Shown piece by piece: positions 4,807 through 62,310 of a stretch of 64,000 bases of DNA (position 1 is its first letter; each line of letters starts with the position of its first letter). The DNA is taken from NCBI GenBank assembly GCA_029204225.1, contig CM055092.1, forward strand, positions 12,526,476-12,590,475, given 5' to 3'. The notes below the pieces were generated by a model. The model ran no database searches. It saw only the letters and a program-made list of their open reading frames with translations, and was not told the DNA's origin. This DNA is from Diphasiastrum complanatum. Lineage: Eukaryota; Streptophyta; Lycopodiopsida; Lycopodiales; Lycopodiaceae. Both the position numbers and the translations under genes were made by a program.

Positions 4807-4819
4807 TGGTATCAGATCC
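4807..4819 (+). other. Primer binding site of A1
   Basis: TGGTATCAGATCC, one base away from the standard initiator-Met tRNA complementary site TGGTATCAGAGCC, placed directly after the CA that ends the LTR. Confidence 0.75.
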
Positions 4820-4869
4820 AACAGGTTATCACTACTTATATTTGAGCAGTGATTCTAGACAGCACAATA

Positions 4870-7804: not shown

Positions 7805-7840
7805 ATATAAAGTCTTACATACAGGATACTATGTCCAACA

Positions 7841-25085: not shown

Positions 25086-25450
25086 TGTTAGAAAAATAAA
25101 TGTAAATGATTTAGAAGCCATAGGTTACTATGACCCAAAAGGTCGAGATCTGTGTAACCATGGTCATTTATATTTTAGGCCCAAGTTAGTATGAAACTAA
25201 CTTGTAGGGACTCGTGGGTCCACCAGGGGCCTATACATGTGAATTAAGTACCTAACTTGTTATTTGGGGTACTTAATTATTTTATGTAACTTATTGGAGC
25301 TAGATAGCCATTAGTCAAGTTATTGGACAACCAACAGTCATGATCATATTGGCTGTCCACAAGTTTCTACAAGAGGGTCATCTAATCATCTCTTTCTTCT
25401 CTTTGAGAATACTTTGTCTTAATGAATAGTCTTGATTCTGGATTCCTACA
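25086..25450 (+). repeat. 5' LTR of element B
   Basis: 365 bp, TGTTAGAAAAATAAATG to GATTCCTACA. Relative to the 3' LTR it lacks about 78 bp after the ACCAACAGTCATGA segment. Confidence 0.93.
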
Positions 25451-25463
25451 TGGTATCAGAGCC
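25451..25463 (+). other. Primer binding site of element B
   Basis: TGGTATCAGAGCC, exact initiator-Met tRNA complementary site, immediately after the LTR. Confidence 0.93.
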
Positions 25464-26084
25464 ATTTTTTAGAATTGATTGCTTGCTGGAGGGCATCCAA
25501 TAGGCAGCTACATTTCTCCTCTTTTGGTTCATAAAAATCAAAAATTTTCTGATTTTTGTGGAGAGAGAACTAGTCGGCTCCTTGTTTTTTGTGCAGGAAA
25601 TTGCAGGGACAAGCTTGGAACCTCCATTCATTTGGGAGCCAGCAGTAGGGCGCGTATGCTCAACTAGTTTTCATGTGATTGAAATCAGATTACATGCTTC
25701 AAATTTTAGATTTTCTTCTTGGAGGAGGGCGCCCATCTACCTTGAAGACAAATGTGTTTTTGACACATTTTTAGTGGCTGAAATTTTTTGATTTTTGAAC
25801 CTGGAAGAAGGTCCTACCATCTGCTCCATTAGCACATTGAGTGCACACCATTTTACCACAAAAGTTCTGGTTGTGGTTTTGGCTTCATTGGAAGCTTGCA
25901 TATTAGTTAGTATTATGTTATTTTAGCATAATACAGCCACCTATATCTTCTTGTGAATGAGCTATTGCATGTGGTGTATTGCAATCTATAGTGCTCATTA
26001 ATTCAACCTTGATCTTGCTGATTTTTTAGTAGATTTTGGTCTGGAATCTGTTTTTTCCATCTACTATTAGCTGAATTTTCAAAA
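25464..26084 (+). other. Untranslated leader of element B
   Basis: About 620 bp between primer site and gag start; contains two similar GGAGGGCGCCCATCT/GGAGGGCATCCAAT segments but no supported gene. Confidence 0.6.
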
Positions 26085-40297: not shown

Positions 40298-40484
40298 AAC
40301 ACGCGCGTGTGGGGGGGGGGGGGGGGGGGTTGGGGGGTTGTAAAAACCTATGATTTGCTTAAAATTTAAGGGCAATCGGGCTCATAGCCTATGGGGAAAA
40401 CGAGTGTGTTTGTAAAATTTGCAAAAAAATGTTTTTAAGGCTTTTGTGAATGAATACTAGGTTTACTTGAGCAGTGCTTCTTGG
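39291..40484. other. Non-coding stretch with a (CA)n and poly-G tract
   Basis: No gene recognised upstream of the IF-3 start. Contains the microsatellite at 40256-40329 and a weak SINE-like block at 40485-40556. Part of it may serve as the IF-3 promoter, but no element can be assigned. Confidence 0.4.
40256..40329. repeat. (CA)n microsatellite followed by a run of 19 G
   Basis: CA repeat from 40256, a short AAACAC variation, ACGCGCGTGT, then 19 consecutive G. Such a tract is prone to length error in assembly. Confidence 0.95.
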
Positions 40485-40556
40485 TTTCCAAGAGGAGGCT
40501 CAAACCTGGGACCAAAGAAACTTTGGATGCCACGCTAACCAGTTGAGCCAACCCCG
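40485..40556 (-). repeat. tRNA-like (SINE-type) sequence upstream of IF-3
   Basis: On the minus strand TGGCTCAACTGGTTAGCG (40550-40533) resembles a Pol III A box and GGTTTGAGCC (40506-40497) a B box, about 26 bases apart. This fits a tRNA pseudogene or SINE head. No A-tail or target duplication is obvious. Confidence 0.4.
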
Positions 40557-40720
40557 TTGGGTTACTGTGAGCAGTGGAAGAAAAAGCTTTCATTGTTTCT
40601 CGATCATTTTCTGTATCCTCATCAATGGCCGCCTCCTACACATTTCATGGAAATTGTAGAACCAAGAACAACACTATGACCTCTTTTTAACGATTTTAAG
40701 TGGAGAGGAGAGGAAGAGAC

Positions 40721-40954
40721 ATGAGGCAGCAGGGATGGAGGCATTTGCTCTCACTTAAACACCTCTTGCTGCAGGCGTCCTCAAATGCTTCATGCATGCC
40801 GGAGCAGATGTCTGTCCTGAACACAGAGGCCGCTGTTGCACCCACAAAATCATGGAGGTCTTTGCTCCAGGAGTTGCAGTCAGCAGAAGAAGCCTTGCCA
40901 CTATGCAGATCCTTCGGTTTGGTTGCTCCCAGGCACTTTGGAAGCGCTCGCCCT
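40721..40954 (+). CDS. IF-3 exon 1 (presequence)
   Basis: 78 codons, ends at CCT|GTGAGT in phase 0. Encodes the targeting peptide and a poorly conserved spacer ending HFGSARP. Confidence 0.8.
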
Positions 40955-43900
40955 GTGAGTGTTCTGTTACTTATCCATAGCATGCTTAATGGAAAGAAAT
41001 TTAGGTTTATGAATTTGAGAACAGGGAAATGAAAAGGTGGCAATGTGGGTTTGAAGAAACGGACGAGACTTGTTGCTGAGGAATGGGACTGAAAGATATG
41101 TCTTTTAAGTAGAATGGCTTTTATTTTGTGAGCTCGATGGAGTTCGATAATAAACCTATGCCACATTATTCCTTTGCTTTCTGCTCACAAAGGTAAAGTC
41201 ATAAAGTATGAAGCTAGATAGCCTAGATGCTTCTTTTATACATAGATTTGATTGCTCTATTGTGAACACAGAACAGTAGTGGGAAAGCTGCATCCAAAAC
41301 AAACTTTGAAGAACCTGACGAAAAACTGGAGTCTGATAAAAAGGGTCGTCGTGTCAATAGAGCAGTGACAGATAGATTTGTTCGAGTCGTAACAGAAGAA
41401 GGTGGGCCTTGCATCTGACATTTTCATGAATTTAACCGTCACATGGTAACAACACGCCATTTTGTGAGGGAATGTTAACCCTAGTATGTGTTTACGATTG
41501 TTGAAGGAAAGTTAGCTACAATGTGTGCTTGGATCTCGATTCATGAAAAGATGGTTTGGTTCCAACTTCATTTTTTTTATGAAAACTGCTATCAATGAAC
41601 CTGAGGAGATTTGACTTGTCTAGTATTTTGAAAAGTTTATTGCTTCTAATCTTTGTGATAAGTATTGTAGGAGTGGCATACCAGCTCAATAAAAAATTTC
41701 ATATGATTTCGGTGGAATCCAATTTCCCGAAAATTCCCTTTTGAACGCTAATCAGCCTTTATTTGAAATTCTACTATTGTGACTTCATAGAAATGGAAAT
41801 GCTTTTCTATGACTGAATACTTATTTATACCCATATAAATCTCATTGGGTAGAAGGGAAAGAAAACTAGAAGTTTCCTTTTCATTGCAAGGCCCGCCGAA
41901 TAGGGTTTATGGTTTCTTAGGAAAGGACATGACATCTCCTTATTTCAATGGTAAATTGAATTGGTTTTTTAAAGTAGGGAATATAGCAAGGCATTAAGCA
42001 GATTGAAGGGAAAGTTGTAAATTTTCCTTAATTTTTCCATACCCAAGGAAGATACACTTCACGGATTCTGCATCAAGTTTCTTCCGCAAGTCCTTAGGTA
42101 TATGTGCATATGTTGTGCACCCAAATACTCGAAAGCTGCCCACCTTGGCTTGTTGCCACTGTATGCTTCTTCAGGTGTGATTCCTTCACCTGCTTTGGTT
42201 GGGCAATAGAAAAACAGCAGTTGCTATTGCTTCCGCCCAAAAGGAATTTGACAACCCCTATGTCTTGAGCATGCTCCTCGCACACTCTACTATAGACTTG
42301 TTTTTCCGCTCAGCCATGCCGTTCTGCTGCGGTGTATGTGGAGTAGCAAATTGTCTCTTTATCCCACATGCCTTGCATAGGTCTTTGAACTCATCAGAAG
42401 TATATTCACTACCTGCATCTGACATGAGAGTCTTTAGCCTCTTTCCTATGTGATTTTCCACCAAAGCTTTCCACTGTTTGAAGTATTTGAATGCTTTAGA
42501 TTTTTGTCTCAAAAAATAGACATCTAAGAAGGTCATGAAATAGTTGCCCCCCTTGCTGATCGGGTCTTCATGGGACCGCACAAATCTGAATGCACAGACT
42601 CAAGAATGGCCTTGGCCCTGGTAGCTTTTCCCTTTGGAAACCTTTGCCTTTGTTCCTTTCCTAGTGCACAAGCCTCACATGCATTTGAAGAAGACTAAAT
42701 GCTAGGAAGATCTACTACCATATTGTGCTTGTTCAAAACTCGTAAACTTTGATAGTTCAAATGACCATACCTCTCATGCCAAAGCTTGTCCTGGCTAGAA
42801 TCGTGTGTTGACAAGGCCTCTTGGCTAGGAATCGTTGTGTAAAGCTTGTAAAGACCCCCTTCTTGCATGCCCTTGGCTACCACCTTGAGGCTTTGATCTT
42901 TGTCTTTTACCAAACAGGTAGATTCGTCAAACTCCACCAACATGTTCTGTTTGGTAATGGCACCAACAGATAGCAAGCTCTTGGCCAATCCTGGTACATG
43001 CAACACACTTGATTACCTTCACCTCTCCTGATGACAGCTTCACTGGAACTATGCCTTTTCCCCTCACCTCATGTGTAGAGTTATCTCCAAGGCATACTTT
43101 TTGACCATCACCTGTCTCCTCATAGGTGTTGAACCAATATCTATGGGGTGTCATGTGCTTCGAGGCTCCAAAATCAAAGTACCATCCACCAAACGTGGAT
43201 TTAGATGATAGGGCTGCGGTGAATAGATCAAGCCCACTAGATTGCTCTGCTCTTGCAACTTTATCAACACTGCTGGTTTTTACCCTTCTTTTGATCACTT
43301 TACTTCTTTCGACATTCAAAAGCGAAATGCCCATACTTACCACAATAGTTGCAGTTGCCCTTCCTCTTGGGTGTAGATGAGAAATTGGTGCTTGACTCCT
43401 CTCCAACCGGTAACTTGGACACTTGCTGCTTCAAGCTTTGCTTTAAATCCTTCCCTTTGCCTTTCCCTTTCTTTTGAAAGTTTTGCTTCTTCTTAGAAGA
43501 AAATGCATGTTCTAGATTATCTTCCCTTTTAGAAAGATTTTTCCTTCTCATCTCCTCTTGTAAAAGAAGACCACATGCTCCCCAAAGGTTGGGAGTTTCT
43601 CCCTAGCAAAAACGGACATCACATAGTCCTGATAGTTGAATAACAAACTGCTCAAGAGTACTCGTATCACTTACTGTCTCTCCCACTGAAGCAAGCTGGT
43701 CCATAGGGTCCTTGACCTTTGTGATGTGATCATTGATTGTTGCACCTGTTTCCATCTTGAGAGTATATAACCTGTTCTGCAAGTAAATAAGCTTGGCTGA
43801 ATCCACTGTTTCAAACATAGACTTTAAATTGCCCCAAGCTTCCACTGCAAATATGAGAAATGATGTTGCCTTTGACAGAAAGATTGATCATCCAATGAGC

Positions 43901-46900
43901 CTTCTATCTCCTGCTAATGTAGTCCTTCAATTCAGGTTCAGATGTAGGTACATGCTCTCTACTTGCCATTATCTCCCAACAATTCCTGTCCATCAAGATG
44001 TTAGCCATCTTGAACTTCCACACTCTGTTGTTTGTGCCATCAAGTCTACTTGATTCACCCAATGGACTCTCTCCAAGACTAGCCATGCTATAATCTTTGC
44101 TCAAACAGAAGCTCAACCTGAAAGAAATCAGAAAAGAAATAACTTTCAACAACTAGGGTATGTAGCCACTTCAAGGCAACCCTTTAGCTCTTGCTTTTGA
44201 CTTTGCCACTTGGTATGGCCTTTCTAGCACAAGCACTAGACCCCACTGGATTAGAAACCAAAAGCCCCTATAGAAATTGCGCCCTACTATTGTGTAAGCT
44301 CCTCCAAAACGACTCCCCAAAACTCAGCCAGAATCAGGAAGTTTTTGGATCATCCCACTCTCCTTGCCAACAACTCTCCAACAGTGGAAGACAACCTGAT
44401 CTGACTCCCGTAGATCAAGAGCGCCCTCCTACAAGATTGAGGTGCTTGTGGAAGATGAGAATCTTCTCAAGAATCTAAGCACTGAAGTTTCTCTCACTCA
44501 CAGACTCACATGCTAGACAACTTGCTCTGATACCATGATGAATTGCAAGACCTAGCTATCAAGTATCTTAATCGCAATACTAGATCAACCAAAAAAGCTT
44601 GAGAAACTTAGCTTTGGAAAACATCAAATACAAGGAGAATTGCATAAGCTCCTCACAACGCCAAAAGTTAGAAGAGAAAATGAATTGTTGGAGAGAGAGA
44701 GGAGGGCGTGGGTCCTCCAAATCCCTTGTGAGGCAAGCACCTCAAGTACATGCATGGAAAGTCTAGGTGTCAACCATATGAACGAGCTACTTGGCCAAGT
44801 GGGCCACTTGCACTAATTTTCTTAACTTACTAATAAGGAGTCTCATGTATTTAATTAATAACATGCCCATGAGTTATGTACAATTTACAACATAATTAGT
44901 TAGCCAAAGGGGTAAAATAGGTATTACTCTTCAACAGGTAATACATTCAAGTAGATGCTATACTCGAGAACAGAAGTATCATAATGTCTTTATCTAGAAA
45001 TCGTAGCATTTTTTTTGAATAGTGCATTATTTTGCTATCGAGATTTCTTGCAAGTTGCACCTTTGATGAAATTCAAAAAGTGCTCAAGCACAAGATGTCA
45101 GCCTCGTAACAAAATCAACTGGTGTAAAGAAATGTGATTATTTGTAAGTCAGAAAGTTTTTTTTTTGGGTCTTCTTTGGAAATATTTTTAGCTGTCTTAG
45201 AAAAAAAAAAGAATCCTAGAAAGTCCAAGAAACTTGTAAGTTGTGCATAAGACATGGGGGTAAAAGATTTAGTACATAGTACACCCTACTTGTGCTAATT
45301 GGGCAAAGTAATATCAAGTAGGTTGAGGACCCATGTGGGTTCTAGAGCTAGAATTAGCAAGACACCACCTCTATACATTACATGCTATATGTAGCCCAAA
45401 CTTTGGAGGGGTTTCCACGCCCTACTACACTTTGAATAATCATTCAAGTTGTGTGAGCTTTGAAGTCCTCTCTCTCTTGCTTTTGTGTTCTACTCCATAG
45501 CTGGTTTTCTGAAGCTTTCATAGTGTGCTTGCTATGCTGTTATGATACTCCATAGCTAGGCCTTGGAATTTGTCATGGTATCAGAGCAGGTTATGTTGCC
45601 CGTGGTGTGGTGAAAGCTTGTTTGATCAGATTCTTGGCATTCCTGGAGAGCAGCTTACCTTTGAGGAGGGAGCACTTTTTGTAGGGCGCGCATCTGATCT
45701 CTGTGCTTTCAGCATGGTTGGAGTACTGTTGGCAAGGGGAGTACAGGGAGCCAAAAAGTTTCTAATTTGGGACAAATTTTTTTGAGTCTTTTTGGACAGC
45801 CAGGACTATAGGAGGGCGCTTTCTACAGTGGGGACTTCAGTGAAAGTTCTGAGTGGATCTTGGACAAGGGCTAGGACAGCCATACAGGGGGATAGTTTCA
45901 AATCCAGAAGTTGAGGGTTATTGAGCAAGTGGTGCATACCCTAGTTGGGTGAAAACCCCAGTTTGCCTTTTGTGTTTTATTTCTATCCAGCTATGTCTAG
46001 TCTTGCAGAGAGCATGCTGAGTGAAGCCAGCCGGATTGATGGCACTAACTTTAGCATATGGAAATTCAAGATCAAGAACATTCTTGAAGACAAAGAATGT
46101 TGGAAGCTTGTGACAGGTGAGGAGCCTGTTCCAACATCTGAACTTGAACTTAAGGACTATATCAAGAGAGGGGAAAAGGCACACAAAATCATCAACATGT
46201 CAGTGAGGGATAATGTGATTCCTCTGATCAGGTCAGCCAAAGGGCCTGTGGATGCATGGCACATTCTTTGTGCATTGTATGAGACAGCAAGTACAACCAG
46301 GTTTCTCTACTTGAAGAACAAGTTGTATACTCTCAGAATGAAGAGAGGGGAGACAATTACTGATCATCTTACTAAGATTCAGGATATTAGATATCAGCTT
46401 TCTGTACTTGGAGAGTCTATTGCTGACAAAGACTTGGTGCCAATAGTTCTGAATAGCTTGTCATATGCTTATCAGAACTTTGTGATGATGATATCAGTGA
46501 GAGAGAAGATCCCGACCTATGAAGAAGTCTATGGTCTCTTGTTACAGGAGGAGATGAGGAGAGTTAATCTCTCCAAGAGGGAAGATTTCCAGGAGCATGC
46601 CTTTGCTTCTAAGAAGAAGCAAATTCCAGCCAAGGATAAGAAGAAAGGTAAAGGCAAGAACAAAGGAGCACCACAAACACTTGAGCAAGGAATGGAGAAC
46701 TTGCAGATGTCAGAAGCACAATCCTCCTCGAATACTTCTTCCACACCTCGAAGGAAGGGGAATTGCAATTACTGTGGTAAATATGGACACTTTGCTTTTG
46801 AGTGCAGGAAGAAGCTTGCAGACCAAAAGAAGGGCACAAAGAAGCAAGGAGGAAATGTTGTTGAGAGTGTTGCAAGAAAGGACCAGAGTGACATAAGGCA

Positions 46901-49900
46901 AGCTGAGTTATTCTCTGTTGCATTGGCCTCACAAGCTACAACAGGTGGTTGGTACATTGACTCACGTGCTTCAAAGCACATGACCCCTCATAGGGATTGG
47001 TTTGATACCTTTGTGGGGATTTGTGATGGACAAGAGGTGTGCCTAGGTGACAACTCAACACACAAGGTCAAGGGAAAGGGCACAGTACTTGTAAAGCTTC
47101 CATCAGGAGAAGTCAAAGTCATTAAGAATGTCTTATATGTACCAGGACTTGCTAAAAATCTTCTTTCAGTAGGAGCTATCACTCAACAAAATATGAAAGT
47201 AGAATTTGATGCTACTTCTTATCTTGTGTTGGACTTGAGTGATAATATGAAGGTTGTGGCCAAAGGATTGCAGGAAGATAATCTATACATGTTATACACT
47301 TCTATCCCTAGTCAGCATGCTTATACAACAAAAGGAAGTGATGTGGATAGGTTGTGGCATGAGAGGTATGGACATCTTGGCTACCAAAGCATGCAGGTGT
47401 TGAACCAGCATCATATGGTGGAGTCATACCCCTCAGCAAAATAGCGTAGCAGAGAGAAAGAACTGAACTATTGTGGAGTGTGCAAGGTGCATGCTCAAGG
47501 CAAAGGGATTGCCCAACTCTTTTTGGGGCGAGGCAATGCACACAACAGTGTTTTTGTTGAATAGAAGTCCAACAAAAGTTGTGGAAGGCAAGACTCCAGA
47601 AGAGGCATTTAGCGGCATCAAGCCCAAGGTGGGTGCTTTGCGAGTGTTTGGTTGTACGGCCTATGCCCATATTCCCAAGGATAACAGGAAAAAGCTGGAT
47701 GCAAAATCAGCAAAGTGTATTTTCTTGGGATACAGTGAAGAAAGCAAAGCTTACCGACTTTACGATCTTACTAGCAAGAAGAGGATCATAAGTCGAGATG
47801 TGATCTTTGAAGAAGATCAAACGCCTCCTATAGAGGAACTTGAGATGGAGGATGGTACAAGTGAATTTGTGCCAATACTTGATGACCCACATCCATATAT
47901 TGGGGAGCCTCAGGATGATCATATGAGTGACCAAGAGGAAGAATCCGAGGAGGCTAGGAAGCGGAAGGAAAGGGGAAATCTGTTGAGTCCTATTCACCGT
48001 CTTCATCACCAACTGCAAGGAAGAAGTTTCCCAAGTGGTACTGGCAAACTGTGCAGGATGGTTTGATATTGGATGAGGGAGAGAGCAGCAATCCAGGGGC
48101 TAGGAGGTCTCAAAGGCAAGCCCAACAGCATGAACACCAGGAGACAAACTATGCAGTTATGACTACTATTTTGGATTCACAAGATCCGCATACATTCATT
48201 GAGGCAACAGATGAGAAGGTATGGCAACATGCTATGCAAGAGGAGTACGACTCCATTCTCAAGAATGATACATGGGATTTGGTGAAGTTACCAAAAGGGA
48301 AGCGTCCTATTGGCTGTAAGTGGGTCTACAGGACCAAATACAAATCGGATGGGAGCATCGAAAAGCATAAGGCAAGGCTGGTTGCTAAAGGCTATGCACA
48401 GAAGGAGGGCTTGGACTATGATGAGACATTTGCACCGGTAGCTAAGATGACGTCTATCAGGTTGGTTTTAGTATTGGCTGCATTTTTTGGTTGGGAGGTC
48501 CATCAAATGGACGTGAAGAGTGCTTTTCTCAATGGACAGTTGGTTGAAGAAGTCTACATGGAACAGCCACAAGGTTTTGAGGCTAAGGGCAAGGAAAGTA
48601 TGGTATGTAGGCTTAAGAAGGCCTTATATGGTTTGAAGCAGGCACCCAGGGCCTGGTATAGTCATATTGACGACTATTTTGCCAAGGAGCAATTCATAAA
48701 GAGTCAGTCGGATTGCAACCTGTTCGTGAAGGAGGAAGATGGGAACATTACATTGTTTTGATAGTTTTCTATGTGGATGACTTGGTCATCACGGGTAACA
48801 ATGGGCAGCTTATTGAAAAAGTGAAGGCTCAATTATCAAATGAGTTCGAGATGAAGGATTTGGGTTTAATCCACTATTGTCTTGGCTTGGAGGTTTGGAA
48901 AAAGGAAAATTGTGTGTTTATTTCCCAAGCTAACTATGCATGTGAAGTCTTGAACAGGTTCAACATGCAAGATTGCAAACCTGTTTCCACGCCCATTGAT
49001 ACCAGCAGTAAGCCATCTAGAGATGATGGCACTCCTTTTGTGGACGAGACTCTTTATAGGCAGCTTGTGGGTAGCCTGATTTATCTCACCACTACGAGAC
49101 CAAGCATTTCCTATGCGGTTGGTGTAACAAGCCAGTTCATGAGTTCTCCAACTGAAGCACATTGGAAAGCAGCCAAGAGGGTTTTGAGTTATGTCAAAGG
49201 GACAACCTGTTATGGGATTGAGTACACAGATGACGGAAAGCTTCAGCTTGGAGGCTTTACCGATTCGGATTGGGTGATAGGGATGATCGAAAGTCGACTA
49301 CAGGTTTTACTTTCAACCTTGGTTCAGGGGCCATTTCTTGGTGTAGCAAGAAACAGCCCACAGTTACCTTATCATCGACAGAGGCTGAGTACAGGGCAGT
49401 GGCAAAAGCTACCTGCGAGGCAATATGGCTCAGGAGACTTCTTGGGGAGGTGCAGATTCCACAGGATGGTCCTACTATTCTTCAGTGTGACAGCCAGAGT
49501 TGCATCCAGCTTGCCAAAAATCCTGTGTACCATGCTCGTATGAAGCATATTGAGGTGCACTTCTTACGAGAGAAGATACAAAGCGGAGAAATTCAGCTCG
49601 AGTACTGTGATACCAACGATCAAGCAGCAGATATCTTTACTAAGGCACTTAGTAGAGAAAAATTTGAAAAGTTTCGTAGCATGCTAGGTGTTGGTATGAA
49701 CAAAATAGCCATTGAGGGGGGTGTTGAAATAAATGCCTATTTTGCCCCTTAAGGCTTGTATACTTGTAACTTGTAAGTTGTGCATAAGACATGGGGGTAA
49801 AACATTTATGTACATAGTACACCCCACTTGTGCTAATTAGGCAAGTAATATCAAGTAGGTTGAGGACCCATGTGGGTTCTTGAGCTAGAATTAGCAAGAC

Positions 49901-52900
49901 ACCACCTCTATACATTACATGCTATATGTAGCCCAAACTTTGGAGGGGTTTCCACGCCCTACTACACTTTTAATAATCATTCAAGTTGTGTGAGCTTTGA
50001 AGTCCTCTCTCTCTTGCTTTTGTGTTCTACTCCATAGCTGGTTTTCTGAAGCTTTCATATTGTGCTTGCTATGCTGTTATGATACTCCATAGCTAGGCCT
50101 TGGAATTTGTCACATGCAAGGTACTCTGTTCTTTAACACACATAGAACGAGCAATTTATTAGTAACTGAAGCAAGCTTAATCCAGATTCCAAACTTCAAA
50201 ATGACAAAACTTGATCCTCATGAGGTTTGATTTCCTCTCTTGGTAGTAGTCCTTCCTCAACCCTTTTGGTCTTTAACATGCATGCTTTGGTTTTGATATC
50301 AGTATCACTGAGAAGGCATGAGAAAAAGTCATGAACTTGGCATAGATGCGTTGTGTACAATAGAACTCCCTAGATTTTGAAACCTACTATTGCTCCTAGT
50401 TTGTGGGTCTCCTACTCGGGTTCCAATGGCTGTAAAAAAAAATTTGAAAGTTTTTTTTTAGAGGGAATTTTGACATTCTGGAATGCTATGCTTTCAGAAT
50501 GCCATTCTGACGCAAGTTAGATGGCAACGATACAACACAAAAATAGCACTTCGACTCTATCAATGAGTCAACATTATTACTAGGACAAAATGTTTACTTG
50601 ATACATAAGTCACCAACAAAATTTGGTAGCAATGGTTACATGGATGCACAATCGCAGATAGGAAATTTTTCTCTCAATCATAATTCTTGTCTCATCAAAG
50701 AATTGTTCATCTATCCTAATCTAACACTGTATGTTTGGCACAAGGATCTTTTTGTTCACTCATGAGATGGTGGGCAAAACACTTATGATTTTTAGGAAAG
50801 ACTCATGATTTCTCAACTTTTAACATTTTAACCTGGACCAATCAGACATTATTGATTACATAGTTGTTTATTGAGTTATAGCCTTGTTCCCTGTTTTATT
50901 TTGGATAAGATAAGGTCATGGGCCAAGTGACAGAATGTGGGAACCTCTTGGAACTTGTGCCATGTTTTATGCACTAACCTATTTAGGACCTTCTTGGAAG
51001 GATTCTTGAAGGGTCCTCATAACATCGGAGTACAGTAACTCTTAGGCATTTGACAAGTGACCCTGGAGTTCCTTGAATCTTTTGTAGGAGACGTATCCTT
51101 GCAGTTGTAGGAGACCTATCCTTGCAGTTGTGAGAGGATGGTCTGTGAGTCATCTTATGCTCAAGTTACCTATGTCACACAAGGATCTTAGTTGGAGATC
51201 ATTGTTTGATTTATTCAGTATGCTTTCCTCTATGGTCTTATGTGATTTTTCATTTGATTTGTGTTCATAACTGGCCTTTCGATTCAAAAGTTGGTTGCAA
51301 CTTGCAACATGCCTCAAGTGTTTTCAATCCTCATCTTGAAAGTTTTCAATGATTGCTGTTGAAATTAAACTCATGTATTTGTCAGAAAATCAAGCTTACA
51401 TGATAAGATCTCAACATGAGATTAGGACTCAACTCCATTTTATGACCGCTAGGTTCAGCCAAATAAAGGAAAATCATTATGAATTTATTATGGTTAATAA
51501 GACTAGTTCAGTCAGACAATACATCATCAGCTTTTTTTTAAAATCATAAACATTGCGAAATTCAAGCTGCAGCATGTCAGATTCCTAAACTCGGGCCTTG
51601 TGGTCAATGCTTCAATTCACAATGTTAGAACATTTCTCTGAACACCTCGACTCGCCACCCATCTATTGAATTTCATGACCATCCTGAGCTTGGATTCTCA
51701 AGCAATAAACAGCAACATGCCAGACCACCATAAGTTTCCGTCGTTGCCAATTATTACCTAAACACATGCATTCCTGCCCATGCTCCTCTACCATCTTTGT
51801 GTTAGAAGTGGATTCTTTAAAATAATACCCGCAATCATTCCAATTTCCAACAGAGCTGCCCCAACCCAGAACTCAAGCTTCAAAGAGTACCTCATGTATT
51901 CTTGGTTGATGGTGCCATATTTGGCATGTACATGAATAGGTGAGGACATAAGAAGTAGAATTAAGAGGAGTTGACAATTGACCTATATGCCTCTAAATTA
52001 TAGGTCCGGGGAATTTCTGGGTGCTGTTTAAGCACTCTGTTGAAATAAACATAGAAGTTGTTTACTAAGCATTGCTGCCAAGTAAGACACGAGGTTTAAA
52101 AGTTGCCTACATAAGTGGGCCTTAGCTGTTATTCAGATACCATACAAAAGAAAATGGAGAATTATAATTCAAATAAGACTTCAAAAACTTGATATGAAAT
52201 CACATCCAGATGGACTTATGGTTATTTGATTATATTTGTTAGAATTTGTTACAGAGCTGTCATGGATTTGTGACTGTGAATGTTATGAATTCAATGTGAA
52301 TAGAAGCATATTATTTCTGCTCTGACTCCAGTTTGTCTTCAACTTGACTTTTGTAATGCCATGATTCAAGTTTGTTGAGCATGGCTGATAGATCATTAAC
52401 TCTTAGTAATGTTCGACATATGGAATTTTTGAGGGATTTGGAATGGTAACTTTGTTCATTCAGGTCATCAAGTTATGACTAGGCAAGCAGCATTGGAGTA
52501 TGCCCAACAATCAGGCTTGGATCTTGTTGAGGTGAGAAGCGGTTCTTAGTAGTTTAGCTCTAGTACTAATCCCAATGTCTGCAGTAGGTCTAGGTTAACA
52601 TGGATTTTTTCATTGAGGTTCTCAGTTTTGCATCAATTTTTTTTAGGATGTTACTTGTTGTACCATTACTTCTGTAGACTTGTCAATACAAGCAGGTAAA
52701 TCCCTAGGAGCTAAAAAATGCTTCGTTTCCTTTCTTCCTTATTCCACTATCGACAGCTACATTCTGACAGTGCATCACTTCACTGGTGGAAATCTGTCAG
52801 CATAGCACAATATAAGAGTAATTTCTTGAAGCATGTAGGTTGACTCCAGAGCTAATCCGATTGTCTGCAAACTTATGGATTATAAGAAAGAAAAGTATCT

Positions 52901-55900
52901 AGAAAAGCGACGAGATCAAGAACGACGCAAGCAACAGGTTATCACTGTGCTTTTTGAATAAGCTTGAAATTAATTTGTGGACATTTCCAGCATATCTAAC
53001 TTTCTCACATGTTATTAGTTGTATCGGACACACAAATCTGCATATCTCTATACCCCTGGTGGGCATGTTTACTTAGGTTTTAAACAGCATTTCTTTGTTC
53101 CAAGTTTGCAGGTGGACAAACGTCGGTTGAATGATTTAAAGGAAGTGAGGTTTGGCACGAAAATAGTGAGTACTTCTTGAGTGTTATTTTTGTATATAAA
53201 ATAACAGTTTCCTAATGGTTGTCAAATATACCACGAATTTGAGTTAAGATTCTTGATCATGATATCTGATTCGAAGACTGGTTAATGTTGACAGTTATTC
53301 ATGTCATTACACTCTATTCTTAGACTCTACTTATCATCTGTATTTCTTGTAAAGAAATTATGATGCTTAATCTGTGCTTGCTACCTATCACCTTTTATAG
53401 TTATTTATATCATTACACTCTATTCTTAGACTCTACTTATCATTTGTATTTCTTGTAAAGAAATGATGATGCTTAATCAATGCTTGCAACGATTTAGATA
53501 TTCAAAGGTCCATATGAGAAAAGGACATGACTTGTCCAAACTATGTAAAAATAACTATGCTCAAAAATCCATTTATTTGATGCCTTGGCATGCCATGTCA
53601 TGGGTTTTGACATTCTGCGGGTAAATCATCTGTGAGTTTTGCAAGTTTACTTCGTATCTTACTTGCGAAAATTCATAGCACATGGCATGCTAGCAAATGT
53701 AGGCCTCTAGGACTTCTGGGAGGACCAAGTCTGGGGCTAGGGCCTGGTGCATTAGCTAGGTCCAGGGCTAGGTCCAATCTCATGGCCAGGTAAAGCCCAA
53801 GAGGGCTATGAATGCAAAAATCGTAAGAAGGTTCCTTGTGGTTCCGTGCGGTCCATCCACCGCAAGAAACCGCAAGGAGGCTTCTTGCGGTCCCTTGTGG
53901 TGGGCTGGACCGCACGGAACCTCCTTGTGGTCTGTTGCAGTGGCCCAAGGGACCGCAAGGACCTTTCTTGTGGTCCAGCCCACCGCAAGGAGGCTCCTTG
54001 CGGTCCAGCCCACCGCAAGGAGGCTCCTTGCGGTCCAGCCCACCGCAAGGGACCGCAAGAAGGTTGCTTGTGGTCCCTCACAGTTTAGGGTTTAGGGTAC
54101 CCAACCCAACGGACCATAAGGAGCCCACCCCAAGGGACCACAAGGAGCCTTCTTGCGGTCCAGACCAGTGCAAGGGACCGCAAGAATGCTCCTTGTGGTC
54201 CCTCACGGTTTAGGGTTTAGGGTTTAGGGTACCCAACCCAACGGAGCATAAGGAGCCGACTCCAAGGGACCACAAGGAGCCTTCGTGCGGTCCGGACCAC
54301 CGCAAGGGACCGCAAGAAGCCTCCTTGCAGTGGCCCAAGGGACCGCAACGGACCACAAGGGGCCTTCTTGCGGTCCGGTGTGGGCCGGACCGCAAGAAGG
54401 CCCCTTGTGGTCCCTTGGGCCACCACAAGGGACCACCAGGAGCCCCTTGCGGTCCCTAGCGGTGGGCTGGACCGCAAGGGACCACAAGGAGCCCAAGGAG
54501 CCAAAGTGTGAAAAAGAAAAAAATTGACTGAATCACTTGGCAGCCCACCACCATAGCACGCCGGTGTGCTATGGTGGTGGGCTGCCAGGTCAAATTATTA
54601 TTAAACTCAGTTTGTTCCTAAAAACCCTAACGCAGACATGAGGGTCCGGGCCGGAATGCCCGCGTCCGGCGTCTAGACCCGGACGCGTCTGACCCCGGAC
54701 GTGGGGTCGGACGCGTCCAATTTTTTTTTTTTAATTAAAAAAAAAAAAAAACAGATGCGTCCGGGTTCCGGATGCACGCGTCCGGGGGTCCGGACGCCAT
54801 TTTTTTTTAAAAAAAATTTTAAATTTAAAAAAAAAAAAAAACGGACGCGGATGCACCTCTGGCGCGTCCACGTCCGGGACGCGGACGCGCGTCCGGACGC
54901 GCGTTCGCGTCCGGGTCCCGCTTCCTTGGACCTTTGTTTAATAACCCTTTTTTTTTTATTAACTTGTTCCGTATGAGTACATACCAGAACGTAGAGTACG
55001 TTCCACCCTGAAATGGGTGGAGTGGGTTTCTGAGGTGGCATCTTTGTCTATAGATGCACTTTGATTTTGTGCTCTCAAAAATGTATTTGTTCCAACTTTT
55101 GTTCTCAAAAAAGCACTCAAGAGATGACTTTGTTTATAAGTAAAACAGGGTTTTCTGAATTAGGGTTTCCAAAAAATGGCAAGCAAAGGTAATCACTTCT
55201 TCAATCGTGCCCAACTTCTAGAAAACCAATTCAATCGACAAAACTCAATTATGATCTAAAAAGTTATGATGAAAGTTTTTTCTTTGAGTGCTAGAGAGAG
55301 AAAGATTGCCAAAGACAAAAATATATATTTATATAGAGAGAAAGTTAAGCAACTAAAAAGGTAGGAAAGTGTTATAATACCATACTATAAACTCAATCAC
55401 AAGAGACAACAAATAACATTCACAAAGCATTCTCTGATTAAGAAAACTGGATGGACAACCATGGTTGCCGATAGCTCAAGCAGATCTCCAACTAAGTTAT
55501 AGAATCCCCTACAAAAGCTTTAGGACACCAAACTCAATAATTGAGAAATTAGAGTCTCTTATTTATACTTAGTCAAGAACATCGTAGAAGGTTCTAAAAG
55601 GGTCCTATCTTAAAAGGAGGCTCACGATTAATAAAATAGTTGCGAGTTTCAAAAGTGGTTGGGAGGCGTGCAAATAGAAGTATAAAAACTGCGTGTTCAT
55701 AACACTTATGCTCAGTTTTTTGATGCTCACACAACGATTCTGGTTGAAGATGGTTCTATGATTCTTTAGTTTGTTGTCCATTATAGTTTTATGTGAAGCC
55801 GTATGAGTTATTGTGTTCCTGATCTTATCTCGTGAACCAAAAGTGATATCAGTCCTTCTGACACACTATTAAGACTGCTCTTTGTTTTGATTATCATTCA

Positions 55901-57017
55901 GGAGCAAAAGGATTTAGAGATGAAGGCAGAGAATGCATCTCGACTGTTACAACGTGGCCACAAAGTTAAGGTGAGACTAGTTAGACTGAACCAGTATGTT
56001 TCTAGGAGTGCTTGTGCAGGGATGGTAAATGAATAAGCTTCCAAATCATGGCTACCCATGGCCAGTAGTAAAAAGATGTGAAAGATTGTTCACTGTGAAT
56101 GAATTAGTGCTTTCCTGGACATGTAAAATGACCTCGATAAACCAAGCCCAGAAATTCTTCTCTTCTGGTAGTAACTATCTGCATTTTCCTCTGCCTGTGT
56201 GGTTCAGGAGAAGTGTGGACTGTTAACTCACCTTATGTAGACAAGATATAGCATGAGCTCTGTGTGGTTGCCAAGCAACTGTTGTGGATTTCTTGACAGA
56301 TTTTTAAGTTGTTGCTTTGTGCACTAGGAACAACATCATTGTTTTCCTGTTCTGCTTGACTTATTTTTCTTTCCAACTTTATATCACACACATTAGTAGT
56401 ATATTGGTATAAAAGCTCTTATTCTGCCTGTTCTCGTTCCGTTGTAGCAGTGTTACCTTTTTCCTTACGTCTTTTTTAGATTCCTGGCATAATCTCTTAA
56501 CTTGTACAAGGCTTACTATGTGGTTTGTAGATTCATGGCATATTTCTTCTAACCTGTGGAAGGCTTATTAACATTTTCATGATTTTTATGTCCAGTGTGT
56601 TGTGCAGCTCCAGGGTTCAGTGCCTGAGGATGGAACTGTGGATCCCAAATTCTCAGAATTGCTTCACAAAATGATCAATTTGGTACAGCCCTTATATTGA
56701 CATGCCTCTATATGATCATTAACAATTGATCTTAGTGCTCATCATGAAACATTCGTGCTCAGTTAAAACTTTTATGAATAAAAAAGCTTCTGCTTTATGT
56801 ATGGTGATGATAATAGGTGAATGTCCTTATTTTGCAGTTACAGCATATCTCTAAAGTGGAGTCTGAACCTCGATTTGCTTCTCACCGTGCATGGGTGATG
56901 TTGAAGCCATCTTCACCTGGTGTTACAGTTATTTCCAGTGATCCTCACACCACTCCCTTGAGTCTAGTCAATTCTAGTCAAGGTTCTGCCAGTGATGGTG
57001 GGTCTGTAGGATGCTAA
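40721..57017 (+). CDS. Organellar (probably mitochondrial) translation initiation factor IF-3
   Basis: Eight exons join in phase into 306 residues: 40721-40954, 41272-41401, 52464-52531, 52839-52937, 53112-53165, 55902-55970, 56596-56682 and 56838-57017, all with GT-AG borders. Residues 1-26 ([20 protein letters not shown]...) are basic, amphipathic and free of acidic residues, as in a mitochondrial presequence. The IF3 N domain starts near residue 104 ([19 protein letters not shown]) and includes [21 protein letters not shown] basic linker helix ([11 protein letters not shown]) leads to the C domain: [23 protein letters not shown] and [13 protein letters not shown] 30-residue Ser/Thr-rich tail follows. 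IF-3 binds the small ribosomal subunit and proofreads start-codon pairing. Start codon: first ATG that gives a presequence; a GTG at 40700 is also in frame. The second intron is about 11.06 kb and filled with Copia elements. A chloroplast location is the main alternative. Confidence 0.9.
41272..41401 (+). CDS. IF-3 exon 2 (start of N domain)
   Basis: Acceptor GAACACAG; an in-frame TAG would follow if the next AG (five bases on) were used. Encodes an acidic spacer and [18 protein letters not shown], ending one base into a Gly codon at donor GTGGGC. Confidence 0.9.
42060..44085 (-). pseudogene. Copia gag-protease-integrase of element D
   Basis: Reading on the minus strand: gag from ATG near 44084 ([20 protein letters not shown], with [17 protein letters not shown]), a shifted segment (43845-43603: [20 protein letters not shown] and [15 protein letters not shown]), and 43551-43300 with a Lys-rich stretch and one intact knuckle ([14 protein letters not shown]). 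The protease active site reads [12 protein letters not shown]: Asp-Phe-Gly-Ala in place of Asp-Ser-Gly-Ala. GAG-pre-integrase is readable at 43006-42695 ([20 protein letters not shown]). The integrase first catalytic part is damaged, but [17 protein letters not shown] (second Asp) and [19 protein letters not shown] (Glu) are present. Multiple frameshifts show it is inactive. Confidence 0.88.
44521..44535 (-). other. Primer binding site of element D
   Basis: Minus strand TGGTATCAGAGCAAG, exact initiator-Met site, adjacent to the LTR end. Confidence 0.88.
44536..44936 (-). repeat. 5' LTR of element D
   Basis: 401 bp; minus strand begins TGTTGAAGAGTAATACC and ends TGCAATTCATCA directly before the primer site. 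The first 30 bases resemble the start of the 3' LTR of element C (TGTTGAAATAAATGCC). Confidence 0.8.
45231..45575 (+). repeat. 5' LTR of element C (5'-truncated)
   Basis: 345 bp, AACTTGTAAGTTGTGC to GGAATTTGTCA. Sequence upstream of 45231 does not match the first 46 bp of the 3' LTR. Confidence 0.9.
45576..45590 (+). other. Primer binding site of element C
   Basis: TGGTATCAGAGCAGG, exact initiator-Met site directly after the LTR end. Confidence 0.93.
45993..49752 (+). pseudogene. Copia polyprotein gene of element C with integrase-core deletion
   Basis: Gag starts at ATG 45993 ([20 protein letters not shown]) and runs open to 47444: gag core, a Lys/Gly-rich stretch, one knuckle ([14 protein letters not shown]), protease [12 protein letters not shown] (Asp-Ser-Arg-Ala, Gly of the active site lost) and GAG-pre-integrase [17 protein letters not shown]. 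At about 47432 the sequence jumps from MVESYP straight to [11 protein letters not shown], so most of the integrase core, including its first two Asp, is deleted and the frame changes. Reverse transcriptase follows (48200-49200): [59 protein letters not shown] and YVDDLVITG (48772-48800) after a frameshift at 48760. RNase H (49270-49752) contains [20 protein letters not shown] and [20 protein letters not shown], ending in a stop at 49752 inside the 3' LTR. Confidence 0.92.
49711..49721 (+). other. Polypurine tract of element C
   Basis: ATTGAGGGGGG directly before the TGTTGAAATAAATG that begins the 3' LTR. Confidence 0.75.
49722..50112 (+). repeat. 3' LTR of element C
   Basis: 391 bp, TGTTGAAATAAATGCC to GGAATTTGTCA. 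The last RNase H codons overlap its first 31 bases. Confidence 0.9.
50113..52463. other. Remaining part of IF-3 intron 2, nothing recognised
   Basis: AT-rich intronic sequence with one 24 bp tandem duplication (GTAGGAGACSTATCCTTGCA, 51084-51131). The only longer open frame (51349-51549) has no family features. Confidence 0.5.
52464..52531 (+). CDS. IF-3 exon 3 (N domain)
   Basis: Acceptor TTCATTCAG, donor GAG|GTGAGA. Reads [20 protein letters not shown] and VE; the LDLVE block is diagnostic of IF-3. Confidence 0.93.
52839..52937 (+). CDS. IF-3 exon 4 (N domain end and linker helix)
   Basis: 33 codons, phase 0 on both sides. Reads [20 protein letters not shown] and a basic helix [12 protein letters not shown], the linker between the two IF-3 domains. 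Confidence 0.93.
53112..53165 (+). CDS. IF-3 exon 5 (start of C domain)
   Basis: 18 codons, acceptor TTTGCAG, donor ATA|GTGAGT. Reads [18 protein letters not shown], equivalent to the KEIKFRPKI block that opens the ribosome-binding C domain. Confidence 0.93.
53292..53487. repeat. Tandem duplication with period 106 bp
   Basis: ATTACACTCTATTCTTAGAC begins at 53306 and again at 53412. The copies share CTACTTATCAT, GTATTTCTTGTAAAGAAAT and ATGATGCTTAATC, with a handful of substitutions. Confidence 0.9.
53820..54500. repeat. GC-rich minisatellite of palindromic units with telomere motifs
   Basis: The basic 30 bp unit CACCGCAAGGAGGCTCCTTG plus CGGTCCAGCC repeats exactly near 53981-54050 and in degenerate form across the region. 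CCGCAAGGAG and CTCCTTGCGG are complementary, so each unit can fold back. Two larger repeats of about 131 bp begin with a TTTAGGG run (54087-54098 and 54209-54227) followed by GTACCCAACCCAACGGA. Several frames are open on both strands because of this structure; I do not believe any is a gene. Confidence 0.9.
54538..54587. repeat. Perfect inverted repeat: 22 bp arms, 6 bp loop
   Basis: The left arm TGGCAGCCCACC... (54538-54559) and the right arm (54566-54587) are exact reverse complements around GCCGGT. It lies directly after the minisatellite. In the pre-mRNA it would form a strong hairpin. Confidence 0.95.
54640..54930. repeat. CpG-rich GGACGCGTCC repeat block with A/T runs
   Basis: The palindromic word GGACGCGTCC and variants (GCGTCCGG, GGACGCG) occur many times, separated by two stretches of poly-T joined to poly-A (54721-54750, 54800-54840) that are themselves near palindromes. 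The CpG density is unlike anything nearby. Confidence 0.85.
55902..55970 (+). CDS. IF-3 exon 6 (C domain)
   Basis: 23 codons between acceptor ATCATTCAG and donor AAG|GTGAGA. Reads [20 protein letters not shown] and KVK, the helix and turn before the C-domain beta strand. Confidence 0.93.
56596..56682 (+). CDS. IF-3 exon 7 (C domain)
   Basis: 29 codons, acceptor TGTCCAG, donor TTG|GTACAG. Reads [13 protein letters not shown] and ELLHKMINL; the strand VVQLQG occupies the position of the VTLRFRG strand in bacterial IF-3. Confidence 0.92.
56838..57017 (+). CDS. IF-3 exon 8 (C-terminal end)
   Basis: 59 codons and TAA. Reads [20 protein letters not shown] and MLKPS, where MLKP matches the family's C-terminal MVLAP-type strand, then a Ser/Thr-rich tail ending GGSVGC. 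Confidence 0.9.
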   Translation, partial: LQHISKVESEPRFASHRAWVMLKPSSPGVTVISSDPHTTPLSLVNSSQGSASDGGSVGC

Positions 57018-57755
57018 GACTGTTATTTTCCTTCCAAAAAACAGCTTAATCTGCCGAGGCATTGGTTTCTATTTTCAAATGGAACACATGTAAGATGTCT
57101 CGTTCTGAAAGAGGTGTGGGATATCAGGTCTAGCTTGATATTGCAAACATGGGGTTCTTCTGAACTTCTTCAATCAGACCCTTTTGCCCTTTTGGCTGAT
57201 GAAATCCACAGAGCTTTTGCATTCATAATTCTTTTGACAATTTTTTATCAAGGCGCATTTGGTTTGACAGATCAGACATATTTAGTCAGGTTGATCAGGT
57301 GAAACCTGAATTTGTACAGTATATATAGGTGTAACTCTTTGCACCTGGTTTCACCTCTCTTTGCATTGCATTGGATCCCAAATAAATTTTACTTCTTGGA
57401 AATTCCAGGTGCATTATTTTAATGATTATGCCTTTTTTACATTGAATTTTCTCTATTCATAACATTTATATCTGTTGAGTACTTTTGAGGATTCTTTTAA
57501 TACCCAAGTTTATTATTCCTGTTCCATTGTCTCCAAATCTGGTTTGATAATTACTTCAAGCATAAGAACACGTCAGTGCTGTAAGTTATTATTTTAGGTG
57601 TTCATTTCTGGAATGATCATTCCTTTCAGTATACAAATTACTGGACTATTGAGTTCAACTAGCCTCTATTTATGCTTTTCATAACCGTGATAGGCGTGAA
57701 TGTTTTCTTGAATATGATCAATCTCAAAAATGCTAGTGCAGATCCTCGGAACAGA
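57018..57755. other. 3' flank of IF-3
   Basis: AT-rich; presumed 3' UTR and downstream sequence. AATAAA occurs near 57382 (CCCAAATAAATTTT) and could serve as the polyadenylation signal, but this is not proven. Confidence 0.4.
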
Positions 57756-57806
57756 CCTCGGAATAGGCGCTGGTATGCTGTCTGCAACAAATCCGCCTTT
57801 TCGAGG
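57756..57806. repeat. Hairpin repeat, copy 1
   Basis: CCTCGGAATAGGCG (57756-57769) pairs with CGCCTTTTCGAGG (57794-57806) with a few mismatches. First of a family of related imperfect foldbacks between 57.7 and 59.75 kb. Confidence 0.7.
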
Positions 57807-58072
57807 ACAATTCTGACCCCTACAAGATTATTCACTCATGTGAAAAAATGGATCTACTCATCACAATTGGGAGTGGTCAATCACCAATCCTGATGAATAG
57901 AGTTTTGCTAAAGTGAAAACACTTAATTATAGAGGCACATTACACTATTGAGGCAACAAATATTGAAGACAAATCTGCTAAAAAAATACCTAAGCTAAAC
58001 AAATCTAATTATTAAATTCACAGATCTGTCATTTGAAAGTTCAAAAAAATCTAAGAGGAGGTCGGAGCAGCC

Positions 58073-59861: not shown

Positions 59862-59979
<118 letters not shown>

Positions 59980-59988
59980 CATCACATC

Positions 59989-60757
59989 CAATATTCACAA
60001 AAGCTCCATCCTCCACCTTCCTTTTTGTCACCTACCAAGGTGAATAACAAAAGAAGCAAGAGTAAGAGGAGCAAGAGCGAGAGGAGGAAGCTAAAGCAAT
60101 AGCAAGAGCAATAGTCAAGAGTGAGAGAACGATAAAGAGGGTGAGGAAAGAACAACCAACCAAAGGAGGAGACAAAGGCATGTATGTCCCTTGATACCAT
60201 CACCCTCTCCACTTTCCTTTACGGAAAAGTCATGACAAAGGATAAAGATTTCGAAATTAGTAAGAATATGTTTGGGCATCGGTATAACTCACCATTTAGC
60301 TTCGGTATTCTGAGGTGTGTTCTGAGGTTTATTCAAAGGCCCTCACTAAATGCTGAAATCCCACATATCCCTCAGTTTCCCTTTGATATTCCACATTTTT
60401 GAATGGATGTCGGCTTTTGAAAAATCATGCCTTCTAAAACCTTTCAACTCAAAAATGTTGCATTCTAAAATCATACAACTATCAAAGATTGCCGGTTATT
60501 ATAGTCCATAGCCTTGTTAAAGAATAGTGCATTAAATGAAACTATTTTTTATTTGAAAATTATATTCATCACAATAAAAGAATTTAAAAGTCTTCAAACA
60601 TCGACGTTGGCATCCAACTACTTTTCCTAGGCATCAACCTATAAGCTTGCTCCAACACCACATAAGGTGCCCATAAATTTTTCAAACCTTTAAAAAATAG
60701 TGAGATTTCATGTCACAAACTTTTGAGAGTTATTCCAAGGTCCCCTTCCCTAGATTA
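59989..60757. other. Non-coding stretch after the microsatellite
   Basis: 60040-60180 is purine-rich on the plus strand (AGAAGCAAGAGTAAGAGGAG-like). The rest is AT-rich, with no gene recognised. Confidence 0.45.
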
Positions 60758-60760
60758 ATT

Positions 60761-60976
60761 CTAAACCCCAAACCCTAGACCCTAAACCATAAACCCTAAA
60801 CCCTGAACCCTGAACCCCAGACCCTAAATCCTAAATCCTGAACCCTAGACCCTAAACCTTAGACTCTGAACCCTGAATCCAAAATTTTAAATCCTAAACG
60901 TTAAACCCTTACCCTAAATCCTAGACCCTGAATCTAGAATCCAAAATCTTAAATCTAAACCTTGAACCCTAAATCC
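60761..60976. repeat. Degenerate interstitial telomere-like array
   Basis: About 30 units of CCCTAAA and variants (CCCTGAA, CCCTAGA, CCTAAAT, CTTAGAC) over 216 bp, the C-strand of the plant telomere. Point changes in most units show an old array. Confidence 0.9.
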
Positions 60977-62310
60977 ATAGAAGATAGAGATGGTAGAATC
61001 TATCAAGTCAATGGTAGTTGAGGAAGTCAATTGACAATCGACCAAGTCCAACGAGTTTTACCCAGTCTCTTGACACAATCATTGCAAAGATTTTTTGTTG
61101 ATAAATTGCAAAGGAAAACTGTGTCAATAGAGCAACTTGAAGGCAAGTTAGCACAAAGTCCACACGGAAAAGTGCCATCACGTAGACTTCAAATGGAAGT
61201 GCATGTGAAAATCATAAAAAGTTATCTATCATAGCTTCAGGGGTTTCCTAAGTTTTTATGTCAAGCATCTTTGTGTTGGAGTTTGATAGGGCCAGAATTG
61301 GCAAGATGGCAAAATTGTCAATTCCACATGTAAAGCCACAATTTGGCCAAAAGTAGCTTATGATGCAATCTCGAGCTAGTTAGGCTTGTAAAAAGGCTTG
61401 TGACACTTGTGTTAATGTAATTTGATGAGTGATCAAGTCAAAGTGTTGGCTTTAGTCAAGGGTGTTGGAAGTATTTCTAGTTTACACGATGGCTAGATCT
61501 ACTCATAGTGTTAGAGAGGATCCTCCACTTTTAAAGAATCTACCAAAAAGCTTTCAAATGGAAAATAAACAACAAGAGCGGGAACACCAAGGCTTTCCCA
61601 ACTGGTGCCCAGAATGGAAATAAAAACTAATTTGACTAAGACTTACCCAACTAGCCAATAATACTAAACTAGATTCTATTTTAACACCCAAAAGGGATAT
61701 AGAAAGAATAGATTGCGGCTAACTAAGCAAATAGCAAATAAAGAACATGCCACAATAAATCCAATGAAAGGAGGCAAGAGGAGGCCCGAGCACCTTCCCT
61801 TAAGCTATTCACCTTCCAATGGGAACACAAAGAAATAGAATGATAATCTCCAAAATAGAGAAGCATAATATAGCTTAATCTCAAAGTGTTCATGTGTACA
61901 TGACAAATATCTCTGCTTTTATAGCAAGGAGGGTCTTCCATAAGTATCCACTAACTTATGGGATTAGTTTAAAACTAGTCATTCTAGAACTTCTAATTTA
62001 GGACTTAGAACTTCAAAAAATTTCTAGCTTTGAAACTTAAGATAACTCAAGACAAATATTTCTTAAGTTTCTTAAGTCTAAGTTCTAATCCTAAGTTTTA
62101 AGTTATTTTATTATTTTAAGCTTTTACTCATGGACTTATAAAACACATGCCATGGTAAAAGTTTATTGATAATTACTCATATGTGGACTCACAAAACACA
62201 TGCCACGAAGTTTTATTTCTCTTTTTATTTTTTCCACTGTGTTTGCACAGTTGCTAACATTATCTGCCTCATTGGATTGGTGGTCCCACACCAATCAAAG
62301 TTTTTTCGTC
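60977..62310. other. Non-coding stretch with a dispersed repeat
   Basis: No gene recognised. Short frames at 61031-61234 and 61723-61941 lack family features. 61330-61435 carries the second copy of the repeat seen at 34200-34330. Confidence 0.4.
61330..61435. repeat. Dispersed repeat, copy 2 (opposite orientation)
   Basis: The minus strand contains ACTCATCAAATTACA, CCTAACTAGCTCGAG and TTTTGGCCAAAT in the same order as the plus strand at 34200-34330. Confidence 0.5.

Follow-up and report, generated by a model that had tools for sequence, protein, structure and literature searches.

The 64,000-nucleotide stretch of Diphasiastrum complanatum DNA analysed here (contig CM055092.1, positions 12,526,476 to 12,590,475; hereafter the window) includes a gene of eight exons on the + strand, between positions 40721 and 57017, that encodes a translation initiation factor 3 (IF-3) and whose second intron is 11,062 bp long and contains two Copia retrotransposons. 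The window is taken, by the types of gene and element in it, to be a nuclear region of a plant rich in transposable elements (TEs). The gene model was rebuilt from the sequence and adds up to 921 nt, i.e. 306 codons and a stop. The exon chain and its splice dinucleotides can be read directly from the DNA: all seven introns (317, 11062, 307, 174, 2736, 625, and 155 bp, in order) begin with GT and end with AG. Intron 2 is in phase 1 and is the only one that splits a codon, the other six falling between codons. The split codon, for Gly, consists of the G at 41401 and the GT at 52464-52465, and the resulting amino acid sequence is EEGHQVMTR. The start codon is placed at 40721, the first ATG whose frame remains open; stops occur upstream in this frame at 40688 and 40697. 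The components of the gene are as follows; profile positions and scores are those obtained with the bacterial IF-3 profile described below.

40721-40954, + strand: exon 1, residues 1-78, with the ATG and a putative targeting region; donor CCT/gtgagt
41272-41401, + strand: exon 2, residues 79-122, where the IF3_N domain begins
41402-52463, + strand: intron 2, 11,062 bp, phase 1; AAG/gtgggc ... tcattcag/GTC
52464-52531, + strand: exon 3, residues 122-144; profile 30-52, 18.8 bits
52839-52937, + strand: exon 4, residues 145-177, where IF3_N ends and the linker follows; profile 53-87, 34.0 bits
53112-53165, + strand: exon 5, residues 178-195, in phase; an 11-residue stretch aligns with solved bacterial IF-3 sequences
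53166-55901, + strand: intron 5, 2,736 bp, with GC-rich tandem and palindromic repeat arrays
55902-55970, + strand: exon 6, residues 196-218; profile 98-123, 19.6 bits
56596-56682, + strand: exon 7, residues 219-247, in phase; aligned within the joined protein
56838-57017, + strand: exon 8, residues 248-306, stop TAA (57015-57017); profile 145-172, 7.1 bits
57381-57386, + strand: candidate poly(A) signal AATAAA, about 360 nt past the stop and the sole AATAAA in 57018-58000

The identity of the joined protein was established by searches against three collections. In Pfam, residues 106-172 matched IF3_N (PF05198) with an E-value of 9.5e-22 and 77.4 bits against a cut-off of 26.9, covering profile positions 1-69 of 70, and residues 185-271 matched IF3_C (PF00707) with 5.6e-14 and 52.3 bits against a cut-off of 34.8, covering positions 2-85 of 86. 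In NCBIfam, the infC equivalog TIGR00168 was matched at 1.4e-32 (112.8 bits, cut-off 60) over profile positions 3-167 of 170. Nine distinct sequences of solved structures were matched at E ≤ 0.001, all of them named IF-3, the best being 5me0_Y over residues 106-272. With these direct domain matches, the identification of the predicted protein as an IF-3 with both domains holds. A preliminary description of this DNA had claimed that eight exons join in phase into a 306-residue IF-3, that a Gly codon is split between 41401 and 52464 across 11,062 bp, and that the splice sites and the coding sequence are intact; the rebuilt model, in which the 306 codons include neither a stop nor a frameshift, bears out all of this.

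As exons 1 and 2 are far from the remaining exons, the jump over intron 2 is the critical step of the model. When the curated Pfam model was compared with exons 3 to 8 alone, IF3_N scored 59.2 bits and was covered at positions 22-69 of its 70, while addition of exon 2 raised the score to 77.9 bits and extended the match to positions 1-69. The contribution of exon 2 is 18.7 bits and profile positions 1-21, and therefore this exon supplies the missing first 21 positions of the domain. In a second test, a profile made from the IF-3 open reading frames (ORFs) of 80 bacterial loci was run on the six-frame translation of the window, which yields 3,275 peptides with a minimum length of 12 residues. 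A query starting with the core of this protein had served to rank at least 589 confirmed relatives by similarity, and the loci are the 80 that came out on top; none is labelled cyanobacterial, and a tree from approximately 170 residues at 30-44% identity would hardly decide between a mitochondrial and a plastid origin. Because the loci were picked in this way, the profile retains some dependence on the gene model, a weakness of which the curated Pfam comparison with and without exon 2 is free. The five top-scoring peptides were exons 4, 6, 3, 2, and 8 (34.0, 19.6, 18.8, 10.8, and 7.1 bits, respectively; the sixth peptide had 4.4 bits), and they are colinear, all lying on the + strand in profile order. 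The exon 2 peptide matched profile positions 4-26. Defining an N-terminal match as one that starts at or before profile position 10 and ends at or after position 20, only two of the 1,357 reported matches cover this end: that of exon 2 and that of a peptide at 60666-60755, which lies outside the gene and scored 0.0 bits. No N-terminal match was found within intron 2 among the same reported matches. In 100 dinucleotide-shuffled versions of the window the best match anywhere scored 10.3 bits and the best N-terminal match 7.9, so that none of the 100 reached the 10.8 bits of exon 2. Finally, when the frame of exon 3 is read upstream, a stop is found at 52430, 11 codons 5' of the exon, with no ATG in between. 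Exons 1, 5, and 7 are absent from the 15 best peptides of the profile search; the assignment of exons 5 and 7 comes from their phase and from the alignment of the joined protein, and exon 1 is predicted only from its ORF, the first open in-frame ATG, and the donor.

Several results weigh against this model. When peptides were sent singly to Pfam (exons or the ORFs holding them, exon 5 being left out as too short), IF-3 models were matched by three of the seven: exon 4 matched IF3_N at 2.1e-07, above the cut-off, and exons 3 and 6 matched IF3_N at 6.2e-05 and IF3_C at 0.00023, respectively, both below it. Exons 1, 2, 7, and 8 had no IF-3 match in these searches, and exon 1 showed no significant homology in Pfam, NCBIfam, or the PDB sequences. 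Six ATGs are located within 300 bp 5' of 40721 (40429-40690), each closed before 40721 after 3-21 codons, and two of them (40625 and 40676) share the frame of the start and terminate at 40688; these are possible upstream ORFs if the transcript begins that far up. A large C-terminal domain of the type found in Arabidopsis mtIF3 is lacking, as judged by length only. Transcription, splicing, import into an organelle, the choice of the organelle, and the function of the protein are all inferred from the sequence.

The first 30 residues include three Arg or Lys, one acidic residue, and six Leu, and their maximum hydrophobic moment over 18 residues is 0.38, a modest amphipathic stretch. This composition is compatible with a putative organelle presequence and does not discriminate between the mitochondrion and the plastid; the predicted protein is most likely the mitochondrial IF-3. 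At the other end, 34 residues follow the IF-3 core, which ends at residue 272. Arabidopsis mtIF3 is described as being doubled in size by an extra C-terminal domain (PMC12776268). Since the same source reports that an initiator-tRNA-binding role was recently assigned to plant mtIF3, the missing domain is worth attention if transcripts are available. The preliminary description did not mention it. Either the lineage is devoid of this domain or the model is incomplete, and the evidence leans towards a true end.

Intron 2 was described beforehand as holding two Copia elements in opposite orientation, and the domains, long terminal repeats (LTRs), and strands found here agree with that, with the addition that both copies are defective, a point on which the preliminary description was silent. 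The anatomy of the elements is directly observed, their outer edges and the start of the 3' LTR of element B having been read by eye.

42042-44936, - strand: Copia element A, on the strand opposite to the gene and devoid of its 3' part; one LTR at about 44536-44936
45231-50112, + strand: Copia element B, on the same strand as the gene; defective, with interrupted frames
45231-45575, + strand: 5' LTR of element B, clipped; 97.7% identical to 49768-50112
49722-50112, + strand: 3' LTR of element B, starting at about 49722, just after the GAGGGGGG purine tract

Together both elements occupy 7,777 of the 11,062 bp of the intron (70.3%), and 3,285 bp remain. Element A has Pfam matches to zf-CCHC (the gag zinc knuckle), Pol_BBD (PF22936), the pre-integrase domain (PF13976), and, below the cut-off, a portion of the integrase (rve). 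GCTCTGATACCA, located at 44524, resembles a primer site. Element A aligns to element B at 64-72%, a homology that stops at 42042, before the reverse transcriptase (RT) region. No RVT_2 match was found among the four ORFs of this element searched in Pfam, nor was a second LTR found, and element A consequently does not display two LTRs and an RT domain. Element B has paired LTRs that end in CA beside a primer-binding site. Its 5' LTR is missing about 46 bp at the start, the alignable part beginning at 45231, and is directly followed at 45576 by the primer-site-like TGGTATCAGAGC, which we take to be the usual primer site of plant Copia elements. The order of its Pfam domains is that of Copia: gag (PF14223), Pol_BBD (PF22936), pre-integrase (PF13976), SH3 (PF25597), and RVT_2 (PF07727); the integrase core (rve) had no match in Pfam. 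With broken frames, no rve match, and a short 5' LTR, element B is not an intact, autonomous element. The LTR pair differs by two transitions and four transversions in 344 sites (K 0.0176). If substitution rates between 1.3e-8 and 2.2e-9 per site and year are assumed, the age of the pair is approximately 0.7 to 4 million years.

Both Copia copies are at least 640 bp away from the two splice sites of intron 2. Five AATAAA sequences are present on the + strand of the intron, one in the 3' LTR of element B and four outside the Copia elements. Fourteen stop-to-stop ORFs of at least 100 amino acids lie fully within the intron, none of them in 50113-52463. Nine were searched in Pfam, of which eight correspond to retroelement domains and one (49234-49752) had no match; the remaining five are antisense or alternative-frame ORFs that overlap element B. 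A nested gene was not found among the nine ORFs searched, ORFs shorter than 100 amino acids lying outside this search.

Intron 5 includes, at 53293-54510, a direct duplication of 106 bp and, after it, a GC-rich array, both tandem and palindromic, whose units are of the CCGCAAGGAGGC type.

The organization of intron 2 raises the question of whether the mRNA could start inside it, e.g. by transcription from within or after element B, with exons 1 and 2 being a relic. LTRs can carry promoters and element B is sense-oriented; however, exon 2 completes IF3_N, no peptide of the intron matches the N-terminal end of the profile, the frame 5' of exon 3 runs into the stop at 52430 without an ATG, and exons 1 and 2 have kept their GT-AG boundaries and are free of stops and frameshifts, all of which makes an internal start highly improbable. 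That the whole gene is a pseudogene or a silent duplicate, as its long TE load could suggest, is equally hard to reconcile with 306 codons free of stops and frameshifts, seven intact splice pairs, and an IF-3 core that scores well over the cut-offs, and is very doubtful. The least improbable of the alternatives, although still an unlikely one, is that the model ends too soon and that downstream exons encode a C-terminal domain of the Arabidopsis mtIF3 type. The doubled length described for the Arabidopsis protein (PMC12776268), compared with the 34 residues that follow residue 272 here, speaks for such exons; on the other side, exon 8 has its in-frame stop at 57015-57017, the AATAAA at 57381 lies beyond it, and the downstream ORFs of at least 85 amino acids, inspected by eye, include no clear continuation, shorter exons not having been sought.

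A different possibility is that transcripts often stop short within intron 2, e.g. at an LTR, and that the full-length mRNA needs a read-through of heterochromatin similar to that provided by EDM2, IBM2, and AIPP1, in which case the Copia elements would act as a dose control on organelle translation. The Copia element in intron 1 of the Arabidopsis gene RPP7 is reported to act in this way through its 5' LTR (PMC7529245), IBM2 and EDM2 are reported to keep cryptic poly(A) sites of heterochromatic TEs from being used (PMC10241880), and one of the five + strand AATAAA sequences of intron 2 lies within the 3' LTR of element B. Nevertheless, an AATAAA by itself carries little weight, four of these sequences are outside the Copia elements, and the 5' LTR of element B is clipped; we consider frequent early termination rather unlikely. 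The presence of a sense-strand Copia element together with five AATAAA sequences makes a Copia-based control of the IF-3 mRNA possible. The strongest form of this idea, in which the sense Copia is a regulatory element like COPIA-R7, the state of the chromatin chooses between a short mRNA ending in the intron and a full-length IF-3 mRNA, and the dose of organelle translation initiation depends on TE silencing, would be a very long shot.

The locus is thus very probably a nuclear eight-exon plant gene for an organelle-targeted IF-3, the transcript of which, of approximately 16.3 kb, would be made by RNA polymerase II and have its 11-kb intron spliced out. According to this interpretation, intron 2 would have been enlarged by the insertion of Copia elements into non-Copia intron sequence that at present amounts to about 3.3 kb, and the spliceosome would remove it as a whole. 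Because the Copia copies are decayed and keep their distance from the splice sites, the mRNA need not be affected. Binding of the imported protein to the small ribosomal subunit would involve IF3_N, the linker, and IF3_C.

The locus can be considered a case in which a gene of housekeeping type, located in a plant region rich in TEs, keeps its coding sequence while an intron grows by TE insertion. It also exemplifies why distal 5' exons, here those with the presumed targeting peptide, can drop out of automatic models. The preliminary description had made this last point, which is sound and is already known, as such a loss is reported for conifer annotation (PMC10468028). The finding raises no long-standing question.

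Other parts of the window are also rich in retroelement remains. Further Copia-type fragments were identified with Pfam at 4731-5285, 6292-7032, 23827-24978, 26375-28363, and 28662-29276, and a fragment of an integrase was identified at 7811-8206; the Copia-type fragments across 4731-7032 and 23827-29884 show gag, integrase, or RVT_2 domains. Of the 10 ORFs searched in these parts, 8 matched Pfam at E ≤ 0.001, some of them below the cut-off. An ORF of 514 codons at 15498-17042 encodes an acidic Ser/Asp-rich sequence (DDDFGDFES and similar) with no Pfam match at 0.001; it seems to belong to a host gene and not to a TE, and may resemble synergin-type proteins. ARAGORN made one call in the window, a predicted tRNA-Leu (CAG) at 18955-19024 on the - strand, which is not part of the IF-3 gene, and an Rfam search of the window gave nothing at the gathering threshold. 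Simple repeats include a (TG)13 run and then a perfect (GA)45 at 59862-59976, and about 220 bp of degenerate telomere-like CCCTAAA/CCCTGAA repeats at 60761-60982.

Among known systems, the closest in protein organization is Arabidopsis mtIF3 (At1g34360), which like the predicted protein has a bacterial-type IF3 N-terminal domain, a linker, and a C-terminal domain, and which also has extra sequence before the core, as deduced for the Arabidopsis side from the residue numbers given in PMC12776268. As far as description and length can set them apart, the two differ in that the Arabidopsis protein is doubled by its additional C-terminal domain and the one described here has 34 residues after the core. 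SVR9 and SVR9L1 of Arabidopsis are plastid IF-3 proteins (PMC6423176), and the likeness to them, taken from their description, is that of plant organelle IF-3 in general.

The presence of a Copia element in an early intron is shared with RPP7, where the 5' LTR of the element in intron 1, COPIA-R7, provides a poly(A) site, the outcome being decided by EDM2 together with H3K9me2 (PMC7529245); IBM2 and EDM2 are described as acting more broadly on heterochromatic TEs (PMC10241880). While use of the alternative poly(A) site has been demonstrated for RPP7, the comparison on our side is one of sequence alone. A literature search, in which titles and the beginnings of abstracts were considered, returned no paper on an IF-3 gene with such an intron, which does not exclude the existence of one. 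The finding is ordinary, since introns of this size filled with TEs are routine in large plant genomes. Some introns longer than 5 kb and consisting mainly of TEs have been confirmed in Arabidopsis by reverse transcription-PCR (PMC5575664), and the longest annotated intron of coast redwood is reported to measure about 1.95 Mb (PMC8728005) and that of Douglas-fir 778 kb, the latter one that would have been undetected had BRAKER2 been used alone (PMC10468028). In Pinus massoniana the mean intron is given as 11.56 kb or 12.68 kb in two passages of the same source, with 18,536 introns longer than 20 kb (PMC12122422). The long introns of gymnosperms with LTR elements, Ty1-copia included, have been reviewed (PMC9364684), and intron 2 of the IF-3 gene shows the same type of enlargement by LTR elements, including Ty1-copia, with a size of 11 kb that is close to the Pinus massoniana mean and not extreme.

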